Shown here one piece after another: positions 45,248-62,635 of a stretch of DNA of 64,000 bases. The notes below the pieces were generated by a model. The model did no database searches. It was not told the origin of the DNA and saw only the letters and a list, made by a program, of their open reading frames with translations. How positions within the stretch are numbered: the first letter of the stretch is position 1; each line of letters starts with the position of its first letter. Source of the stretch: Flavobacterium sp. N2038 (GTDB lineage Bacteria; Bacteroidota; Bacteroidia; Flavobacteriales; Flavobacteriaceae); NCBI RefSeq assembly GCF_025947185.1, contig NZ_CP110001.1:2232001-2296000 (forward strand), in the 5' to 3' direction. The position numbers were made by a program, and so were the translations under genes.

Positions 45248-47004
45248 TTAAGAAGGAAGATCCAATCCAAATGTAGAACGTAAAAGTTCAATATTTGGAT
45301 TGATTTCTAAGAAACGATTGTATCGATCTTGATCGTTAAGGGCTCTTACTGCTTTAATCTCTTCGTTTACAATTACTTCAATTGTAATGTCATGATTATG
45401 TAAGTGACCTTTTAAATGTCCTAATAAACCATTCATCTGACTCTCAAAATCCAATTTGGAACCTTCATTTGGCAGTTCATATGAAATCGTTGTGCCGTTC
45501 AAAGTAGGATCGCTAATCAATAGAATCGATTCCATAATCTTAAGACCTTTTTGACCTAAACGTTCCGCATATTTGTTCCAATGAAGACGCATATCGGTTT
45601 CGTTAAATTCTTCAGTTAGAAAAACAGTAGTAGGTTTAACGTACGATTTACTATTTGCTTCCATTTCTTTTTTCTTGCGGATACTGGCAAGAGAAAAAGC
45701 AGAAACTTTAGGGCCATTATTTGCTTCTGTTTTTGGAGCTTCTGGAGTTTGAACTTTTGGAGTTTCAACAATTTTTTCGGGCTGAGAAACGGAAGTCTGA
45801 TTTTGAGTTACAGCTTGAGAAGTTTGATTCTCATTTACTGCAGTATTTTCGACTTTGGGCTTTGGACTTTGGACTTCAACAATAGAAAAACTTCCATTTT
45901 TAAAGTAAACGGGCGGAATTATGAATTGCTCAGCTTTTTTTTTTCTCCATCAAAGTTGATAGAGGCCAATTGCATCAAACATAATTCTACCAAAAGACGT
46001 TGATTCTGACTTAATTTATACTTTAAATCACAGTCATTTGCAATGTCAATTCCTTTTAATAAAAAATCCTGAGAGCACTTTTGAGATTGCACACCGTACA
46101 TTTGTTGTGCTTGTTCTCCAACTTCAAGCAAAGCAAGGGTTGCCGGAGTTTTACTTACTAATAAATCTCTAAAGTGAGAAGCCAGTCCGGCAATAAAATG
46201 ATGTCCGTCAAAACCTTTTGCTAGAATATCATTGTAAGCCAGTAGAAGTTCCGGGATTTTATTCTCCAGAAGTAAATCAGTAATGGCTATATAAGTTTCG
46301 TAATCTAAAACGTTAAGATTTTCGGTTACGGCCTGACGTGTCAGGTTAGTTCCGCAATACGAAACCACACGATCAAAAATAGACAATGCATCACGCATTG
46401 CACCATCTGCTTTTTGAGCAATAATGTGCAGCGCATCGTCTTCAAAATTGATTCCCTGACTTTGAGCAACATCAGCCAAATGTTCTTTAGCGTCTTTTAC
46501 TGTAATTCTTTTGAAATCAAAAATTTGACAACGTGATAAAATCGTCGGAATAATTTTGTGTTTTTCTGTTGTTGCTAATATAAAAATAGCATGTTTTGGC
46601 GGTTCTTCTAATGTTTTCAGGAACGCATTAAAAGCGGCTGAAGACAACATATGAACCTCGTCAATGATATATACTTTATATTGTCCTGTTTGTGGAGGGA
46701 TTCGAACCTGATCAATCAGGTTACGGATATCATCAACTGAATTGTTTGAAGCAGCATCCAACTCAAAAACGTTAAAAGCAAAATCTTCATTTGGATCATC
46801 ATATCCAGGCTGATTAATCTTTCTGGCCAGAATACGTGCACAGGTCGTTTTACCAACTCCACGCGGTCCGGTGAATAAAAGTGCAGAAGCAAGATGATTA
46901 CTGTCAATAGCATTCAACAATGTGTTGGTAATGGCTTTTTGCCCCACAACATCCTTAAAGGTCTGCGGGCGATACTTACGAGCCGATACTACAAATTGTT
47001 CCAT
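45248..47004 (-). CDS. dnaX: DNA polymerase III tau subunit, made by a -1 frameshift
   Basis: The clamp-loader ATPase. Frame 0 runs from 47004: RKYRPQTFKDVVGQ, Walker A GPRGVGKT (46-53), DEVHMLS and the SRC motif LSRCQIFDF. The zinc cysteines of many DnaX proteins are replaced by KINQPGYDDPNEDF, as recalled for flavobacteria. At ten A plus G (45935-45944) frame 0 stops within four codons, but the -1 frame is open without a break for 228 codons: AEQFIIPPVYF, a Gln/Pro/Thr-rich linker, then the C-terminal tau domain (NKYAERLGQKGLKIMESIL). Joined length is 585 residues, normal for the phylum. The alternatives are a sequencing error in the A run or a true mutation. Confidence 0.85.
45919..47004 (-). 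CDS. dnaX: DnaX zero-frame product, gamma-like
   Basis: If no frameshift occurs, translation ends as GEKKKLSNS and stop, giving 361 residues: the ATPase domains I-II and the collar domain III, without the tau domains that bind DnaB and the polymerase. That is the same cut made by E. coli gamma. Overlaps the tau entry. Confidence 0.65.
   Translation of the reverse strand: MEQFVVSARKYRPQTFKDVVGQKAITNTLLNAIDSNHLASALLFTGPRGVGKTTCARILARKINQPGYDDPNEDFAFNVFELDAASNNSVDDIRNLIDQVRIPPQTGQYKVYIIDEVHMLSSAAFNAFLKTLEEPPKHAIFILATTEKHKIIPTILSRCQIFDFKRITVKDAKEHLADVAQSQGINFEDDALHIIAQKADGAMRDALSIFDRVVSYCGTNLTRQAVTENLNVLDYETYIAITDLLLENKIPELLLAYNDILAKGFDGHHFIAGLASHFRDLLVSKTPATLALLEVGEQAQQMYGVQSQKCSQDFLLKGIDIANDCDLKYKLSQNQRLLVELCLMQLASINFDGEKKKLSNS
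45935..45944 (-). promoter_or_regulatory. Candidate dnaX slippery sequence, A10-G
   Basis: On the minus strand the zero-frame codons read GAA AAA AAA AAG. The last seven bases of the run plus G form A-AAA-AAG, the E. coli dnaX slippery heptamer. GATGGAG, containing the SD-like GGAG, lies directly upstream. No strong downstream stem was seen, so transcript slippage on ten A (as reported for Thermus dnaX) is at least as likely as ribosomal slippage. Confidence 0.65.
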
Positions 47005-61567: not shown

Positions 61568-61784
61568 GCCACAGATTAAAATGATTAGCACAGATTTTTT
61601 ACCTAAAGTTAAACGGTTTACTCGGTCAAAAAAATAGATGCTAAAGTTTTGATTCACAAAGATTTTGCAGTTTAGACTGATTACGCTTTTGTGCTTCAAA
61701 AAAAAAATCTGCTGAATCTGCGAAATCTGCGTGAAAAATTTCAACGTTTCTTTAGAAATCTCTCCAATCCTTTTAATCTGTGGC
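61568..61784. repeat. 217-base element with GCCACAGATT inverted ends
   Basis: Perfect 14-base arms GCCACAGATTAAAA (61568-61581) and TTTTAATCTGTGGC (61771-61784). Inside are AATCTGC words in direct order. It fills the space between the helicase and dioxygenase genes; no gene inside. Confidence 0.7.
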
Positions 61785-61804
61785 GAAAGAAAAAAACTTT
61801 TACA

Positions 61805-62635
61805 ATGACAACACTAAACGACTTACATTCGATTTCGTCTACGTTTTCGAATACAGATAAAATGCCGGTTTTGTTTTTAGGACACGGCAGCCCAATGAAC
61901 GCAATCGAAGAAAATCAGTTTGTGACAGGTTTTCGTGATTTGGCCAAAACTTTACCCCAGCCAAATGCCATTTTATGTGTTTCGGCACATTGGTTTACAA
62001 ATGGTACAAAAGTAACTTCTATGGCGATGCCAAGGACTATTCATGATTTTGGAGGTTTCCCGCAAGCCCTTTTTGATGTGCAATATCCGGCAAAAGGAAG
62101 TCCTGAGCTGGCTCTGGAAACCAAAAAAATACTAGATCCTGTATTAGTAGATTTAGATGAACATTGGGGTCTGGATCATGGCGCGTGGAGTGTAATTAAA
62201 CATTTGTATCCAAATGCAGATGTTCCCGTAATTCAGTTGAGTATTGACTATACCAAATCAGGGCAATATCATTTTGAATTGGCACAGAAATTACAAGCTT
62301 TAAGATATAAAGGTGTTTTGATTATTGGGAGTGGAAACATTGTGCATAATCTTAGAATGGTAGATTTTAGAAATTTTGATAAAGATAATTATGGTTACGA
62401 TTGGGCAATTGAAGCACGAGAAACAGTCAATAATTATTTGTTAGACGGAAATTTCCAGCCTTTGATTGATTTTGAAAAACTAAATAAAGCCGTTCAATTA
62501 GCAATTCCAACTCCGGATCATTATTTGCCTCTGTTGTATACTTTAGGTCTAAAAGATAAAAACGATGAATTGGAATTGTTTAATGATAAACTTTTGGCGG
62601 GTTCTTTAAGTATGACTTCAGTAAAAATATTGTAA
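61805..62635 (+). CDS. 4,5-DOPA extradiol dioxygenase-like (YgiD/LigB) protein
   Basis: A 276-residue class III extradiol ring-cleaving dioxygenase. Metal ligand candidates are His27 (LGHGSPMNAI), His62 (SAHWF) and His125 (LDHGAWSV), with PDHYLPLLY near the end. Bacterial YgiD opens L-DOPA in vitro; the natural substrate here is unknown. ATG at 61805 is preferred, since the longer frame upstream runs through the repeat at 61568-61784. A diverged copy of its last 24 codons lies at 63772-63846. Confidence 0.9.
   Translation: MTTLNDLHSISSTFSNTDKMPVLFLGHGSPMNAIEENQFVTGFRDLAKTLPQPNAILCVSAHWFTNGTKVTSMAMPRTIHDFGGFPQALFDVQYPAKGSPELALETKKILDPVLVDLDEHWGLDHGAWSVIKHLYPNADVPVIQLSIDYTKSGQYHFELAQKLQALRYKGVLIIGSGNIVHNLRMVDFRNFDKDNYGYDWAIEARETVNNYLLDGNFQPLIDFEKLNKAVQLAIPTPDHYLPLLYTLGLKDKNDELELFNDKLLAGSLSMTSVKIL

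Follow-up and report, generated by a model that had tools for sequence, protein, structure and literature searches.

How does Flavobacterium sp. N2038 express dnaX, a gene whose reading frame is broken at a run of A? The gene lies on the reverse strand of the window, by which we mean the whole stretch of 64,000 nt analyzed here, taken from a genome of one contig (4.67 Mb); its best named matches (the best 80 of 589) come from Flavobacterium and are up to 98% identical. An earlier note, made from the sequence alone, had taken the break for a programmed site yielding a short and a long protein, gamma and tau, and had leaned towards slippage by RNA polymerase.

The two halves of dnaX and the run between them

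The zero frame (45919-47004, reverse strand) encodes gamma, which by the ORF list and by profile and PDB matches comprises 361 aa with the AAA+ domains I-III. Its end reads GAA AAA AAA AAG CTG AGC AAT TCA TAA, placing the stop (TAA, 45919-45921) four codons past AAG, just as the earlier note had described. The run itself (45935-45944) holds exactly ten A, with GGAG before and G after it. Past the run, the -1 frame meets no stop before 45248, and this stretch (45248-45934) carries the tau-specific C-terminal part, consisting of linker and tau domain; adding one A joins both frames into a protein of 585 aa (by arithmetic, 1757+1 nt). The NCBIfam profile of DnaX gamma/tau, NF011531, aligns with the zero frame over profile positions 1-370 (616.5 bits) and with the -1 frame over positions 409-613 (80.6 bits, E 1.1e-22), each half singly staying below the curated cut-off of 685. 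TIGR02397, covering the N-terminal part of dnaX, matches the zero frame above its cut-off (6-346), PF12169, the Pfam domain III, matches it below cut-off, and the E. coli gamma/tau chains in the PDB match residues 4-290 of the gamma ORF with E about 7e-58. A Pfam search of the tau part returned no family, while NCBIfam did match there. Within the last 120 tau codons of 54 genus loci, substitutions number 1252, 619 and 2766 at codon positions 1, 2 and 3 (ungapped comparison, only genus loci with fewer than 110 differences), and this excess at third positions argues that the -1 frame is translated. The profile matches thus mark the two ORFs as two halves of one protein, and the tau content that the note had assigned to the -1 frame is borne out by both the profile and the third-position bias.

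The relatives allow this arrangement to be followed through the phylum. Within the genus, 387 of 398 genomes carry dnaX, and a short open frame of 362-424 codons, stop to stop, is present in every genus match listed of these 387. For the counts below we used 393 distinct loci, divided into mutually exclusive levels by the kinship labels of the genome search (genus 112, rest of family 139, order 33, class 65, phylum 44); identical copies are excluded, and L274 and L291 were left out because of contig ends. The named loci, the best 80 of 589 found with six peptide patterns, one of which spans the site of the run, were placed by identity (L047-L121 in the genus, L122-L126 in the family). At class level, 40 stretches had been picked as 20 looking split and 20 looking single, and class proportions are therefore no estimates. 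Six metagenome records (L077, L079, L081, L086, L097, L098) are titled Sphingobacterium, Rhizobium, Chitinophaga or Bdellovibrio; their dnaX is 90-92% identical to that of Flavobacterium sp. N2038, and the titles look misassigned.

Homopolymers are prone to sequencing error, and a miscounted A would by itself split the gene; a single genus locus, L060, indeed reads A9. However, A10 is shared by 109 of the 112 distinct genus loci, the others being two A11 and the one A9, so that a sequencing or assembly error as the cause of the split is refuted by the run length of the relatives, its probability being practically negligible. The accuracy of the run, which the earlier note had put in question, is thus answered through other genomes. 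A run of A9-A12 stands at the same place in 361 of the 393 distinct loci sampled over the phylum, and at least nine A follow directly on domain III in all 112 genus loci, in 137 of 139 family and 31 of 33 order loci, and in 57 of 65 class and 24 of 44 phylum loci. Ten is the commonest length at the levels of genus, family, order and class, and shares the first place with nine at phylum level (12 loci each). The run is kept even where its flanks are G+C-rich or diverged.

Some individual loci depart from this pattern. In L060 (Flavobacterium sp. YO12) the A9 puts tau in the +1 frame, being either a real variant or an assembly error; L119 and L120 have A11, yet gamma is still their zero-frame product, so that making tau would take a net change of +1 or -2 relative to A11. 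Outside the class, the 13 loci of one family (f83; L393-L396, L398 and L400-L407) retain a run of nine or ten A; tau is in the -1 frame in 11 of them and in frame in 2, and L406 is the only one in which the two off-frame stops do not both fall within 6 codons.

Runs of this length are otherwise scarce in the window. The window has two A10, against 11.0 expected by a shuffling that ignores gene structure, and the genome has 149 positions (4.67 Mb, both strands, overlaps counted); this scarcity is consistent with selection against slippage-prone runs. Among the five places of A9 or longer in the window, only the dnaX run is clearly inside an ORF of at least 80 aa. The window's other A10 (61698-61707, forward strand) is ambiguous, standing at the beginning of an ORF with a GTG start (61691-62635), and is probably upstream of the true start.

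Stops, reading frames and a hairpin at the run

If the gene gave rise to mRNAs of several run lengths, both non-tau frames would be expected to end soon after the run, while a -1 ribosomal shift requires just one of the two off-frame stops. In this genome both frames do stop nearby, with the TAA at 45919-45921 and with a TGA (45930-45932) in the third (+1) frame just past the run, which is conserved in the genus and would end A9 and A12 transcripts. Both non-tau frames stop within 6 codons in 326 of the 361 run-bearing loci, the remaining 35 having an off-frame stop further away, and in 3 of the 30 runless loci (fewer than eight A), a comparison that ignores kinship. The control measure likewise ignores kinship and gives 327/361 at the run against 10261/59174 (17.3%) further along the tau codons of these genes, and 2989/18050 (16.6%) in a codon-shuffled control. 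A kinship-aware test of the run against double stops yields a median p of 0.125 from only 10 supported pairs. How the third-frame stop is kept can be seen from 104 genus loci: 99 of them have T as the last base of the first tau codon (Ala/Val codon background 46%), and in 98 the second codon begins with GA, AA or AG (background 29%), the stop being maintained through changing residues. The earlier note had named relatives with the same protein and no run as a finding that would speak against its reading. Such relatives exist as a minority (30/393), and in 27 of them the paired off-frame stops are missing too. Class members without run and without paired stops include L292, L295, L313, L346 and L353, which may have another way of making gamma or may lack it altogether.

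While the run is kept, the frame of the tau part is not. Among the 363 loci with a run of A8 or longer, tau lies in the frame of domain III in 180, in -1 in 173 and in +1 in 10. Flavobacterium loci have it in -1 in 106 of 112 cases, and in the rest of the family it is in frame in 112 of 138. The places of change can be narrowed down with a TAATTCC-like motif, counted only among loci where the pattern matched: its start is 14 nt past the run in the 67 family loci with tau in frame and 13 nt past it in the 91 split loci of the genus, the run being A10 in every one of them, so that the base lost or gained lay downstream of the run and not within it. Inside the genus, as judged by identity, five metagenome records (L081, L083, L086, L090, L097) have tau in frame with A10. 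A FastTree tree built from domains I-III requires at least 46 changes of the frame label by raw count, and 19 independent locus pairs on supported branches contrast in-frame with split genes. The frames flipped through indels beside the run while A10 stayed, and most of the relatives examined keep the run, whichever of gamma and tau their DNA encodes directly.

A further element directly adjoins the run. Shortly upstream of it, several silent sites are nearly frozen in the genus (GCC in 95/104, ATC in 100/104, GAT in 104/104 and GGA in 103/104 loci), which is likely explained by an RNA hairpin, CUCUAUCA-ACUU-UGAUGGAG (45945-45964, reverse strand), identified by stem score and covariation, whose 3' arm lies against the run and includes GGAG. 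No nucleotide separates arm and run in 108 of the 112 genus loci and in 90 of 137 from the family. Stems scoring at least 6 occur in 97.3% of the genus loci and 70.8% of the family loci, compared with 18.2% and 12.4% after recoding the same peptides with the gene's own synonymous codon usage. Among 95 distinct genus and family sequences, covariation amounts to 0.252 against 0.183 in shuffles (0/500 reach the observed value) and at most 0.139 with slid partners; cells changed on both sides number 45, against 22.4 shuffled and 15-30 slid. Against the hairpin, pairing cells make up 72.3%, compared with 67.2% in shuffles, which do not remove kinship, and two of the five covariation measures are not unusual, namely double-change pairs (6 against 5.3; 213/500) and further pair types (20 against 17.4; 54/500). 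In the window, a 55-nt fold including the hairpin, with a few outer pairs closing around the run, has a z of -2.03, and 8 of 200 shuffles fold equally well. Outside the family the hairpin is weak, with scarcely any enrichment in the remaining families of the order: a score of 6 is found in 9.7% of order, 21.1% of class and 12.5% of phylum loci, against 8.3%, 6.7% and 4.2% at other positions, and score 5 at order level in 32.3% against 19.0%. L239 and L190 have a hairpin in another register (CATCAC...GTGATG), in which the run is still touched.

The presence of GGAG directly upstream of the run, as remarked in the earlier note, holds; its role, however, is that of the hairpin's 3' arm and not of a stimulator at Shine-Dalgarno distance. 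As such a stimulator it was rejected, adjoining the run and pairing within the hairpin as it does. Words resembling a Shine-Dalgarno sequence are found 7-17 nt before the final heptamer in 0/112 genus loci, and outside the family their frequency near the run is close to that elsewhere, with 6/31 loci at order, 12/57 at class and 6/24 at phylum level (background 15%, 14% and 17%). Run, stops, toggling frames and covarying hairpin are all features that can be read from the DNA itself.

Probable slippage by RNA polymerase and its rivals

What do these features say about the way in which dnaX is decoded? We think it likely, on sequence grounds, that the gene is expressed via programmed transcriptional realignment at A10. 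RNA polymerase would slip on the run and produce a mixed pool of mRNAs. Unslipped A10 messages, together with A9, A12 and A13, would give gamma, the short clamp-loader subunit, because both non-tau frames stop within five codons; messages with a net +1 (A11) or -2 (A8) would give full-length tau, which joins clamp loader and polymerase. A hairpin in the nascent RNA, at the upstream edge of an all-A:T RNA-DNA hybrid of 9-10 bp, may promote the slip. With a hybrid of the 9-10 bp described in Atkins 2016 (PMC5009743), a run of ten and a hairpin at its 5' edge would fit once the polymerase has reached the end of the run. The slip, its direction, the ratio of the products and an action of the hairpin on RNA polymerase are what we infer from this arrangement. 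Toggling is informative on the mechanism because slippage tolerates any frame, while a directed ribosomal shift does not. According to Antonov 2013 (PMC3711429), genes with ribosomal frameshifting keep its direction among orthologs, while those with transcriptional realignment need not; with all three tau frames among its relatives, dnaX thus falls on the side of realignment. Such indifference to frame would fit slippage of the Thermus type better than -1 ribosomal frameshifting of the E. coli type. The two products proposed in the earlier note, gamma of 361 and tau of 585 aa, are well supported by conservation, and its leaning towards RNA polymerase is supported by the three frame arrangements, the stops in both non-tau frames and the lack of a conserved downstream stem.

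That tau arises instead by a -1 shift of the ribosome at A_AAA_AAG, as in E. coli, seems unlikely to us. The heptamer is in frame in this genome, as the note had stated, and in 129 of the 171 run-bearing loci with tau in -1; it is, however, no conserved element, being absent in frame from 193 of the 361 run-bearing loci. One pattern search of the genome found only tRNA-Lys(UUU), which together with the in-frame heptamer would permit an E. coli-type shift and counts against slippage; given this result, the two-tRNA-Lys argument made for Thermus would not apply. A reversed dnaX in Chlorobium is described as a candidate with potential E. coli-like stimulators (Atkins 2016; PMC5009743), and the window's own fold has a weak stem about 30-60 nt past the run. 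A conserved 3' stem was nevertheless rejected: over a 60-nt stretch beginning 3 nt past the run, 24 loci drawn from the 112 of the genus have a mean z of 0.27, and although the class mean is -0.93, against -0.19 in control stretches, downstream structure is absent on average. Tau in the +1 frame in 10/363 loci and a stop maintained in a frame that a -1 shift never uses likewise speak against this route. Bacteroidia ribosomes are described as failing to recognise the Shine-Dalgarno sequence, except for a bS21-less subpopulation (PMC9976891), and low prfB frameshifting in F. johnsoniae, reported second-hand (PMC12421855), argues against ribosomal routes.

Ribosomes sliding on poly(A) in any direction would be as indifferent to frame as the polymerase, and both the three frames and the double stops would follow from it; such movement has been documented for E. 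coli ribosomes (PMC4363877). In that system, however, it is slight at A9/A10 and robust at A11, while A10 dominates here, and a hairpin directly at the run would be unwound within the ribosome, which leaves sliding with a slim chance. It is very improbable that this reading gives only gamma, with the tau domain either a separate polypeptide made by internal initiation, for which a 138-aa ORF from an ATG at 45664 could be adduced, or decaying: the frame of linker and tau domain reaches the run without a stop in the genus loci read, many relatives encode one continuous protein, and the substitutions in the tau codons follow a purifying pattern.

Known systems and the meaning for Bacteroidota

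Transcriptional slippage at dnaX is known, as is the two-ORF A10 type, published in 2013. In Thermus thermophilus it takes place on A9 (PMC1088944, PMC5009743), and the Flavobacterium gene shares with that of Thermus the A run late in the gene, the stops in both non-tau frames and the two products, which for Flavobacterium are predicted. It differs in that the DNA encodes gamma and tau would need the slip, and in its A10; the hairpin touching the run may be a further difference. Reversed dnaX roles in a few bacteria are mentioned in Atkins 2016 (PMC5009743). Antonov 2013 (PMC3711429) describes 17 two-ORF dnaX fs-genes from 12 genera, nine of them with ten A, and favours realignment; these resemble the present gene in their adjacent ORFs, the -1 frameshift at the DNA level and the ten A, while the sections of that paper on two-ORF dnaX contain neither a hairpin nor a third-frame stop (PMC3711429). 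Its species list may include Flavobacterium. A search method built on frame breaks would miss the single-ORF members of dnaX, so that toggling would stay hidden from it. For toggling across Bacteroidota, the kept third-frame stop and the dnaX hairpin, we found no report in open-licence PubMed Central.

With dnaX of E. coli, the gene has in common an in-frame A_AAA_AAG and the making of gamma and tau from one gene. It differs in the reversed roles of the two, in a shift direction that is not conserved among orthologs, and in lacking both a conserved 3' stem and a Shine-Dalgarno-like stimulator at working distance; the E. coli-type stimulator lies about 10 nt upstream of the slippery site. A hairpin directly 5' of the slip motif is, in turn, shared with the IS630 of Roseiflexus, for which stem-loop-mediated slippage is described, the hairpin being 5' adjacent to the motif (PMC5009743). 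There, the motif is U5C5, while here it is a homopolymeric A10 in a chromosomal replication gene. The Roseiflexus hairpin drives base loss, while tau here needs +1 or -2, which counts against slippage.

To a wider scenario we give an even chance: in much of Bacteroidota, the subunit ratio of the replisome would be set by slippage at a run of hybrid length, primed in Flavobacteriaceae by a nascent hairpin of terminator-like geometry, with selection maintaining the run, the hairpin and the double stops while being indifferent to frame, and with gamma-first and tau-first genes interconverting repeatedly by single indels. The toggling of dnaX amounts to a natural experiment, spread over hundreds of genomes, which aids in telling transcriptional slippage from ribosomal frameshifting. 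It accounts for the broken look of dnaX in Flavobacterium and points to a hairpin-assisted slip, as we infer it, in an essential cellular gene of bacteria whose ribosomes normally do not use the Shine-Dalgarno stimulus of E. coli dnaX. The old question of why gamma is kept becomes testable in a tractable organism.
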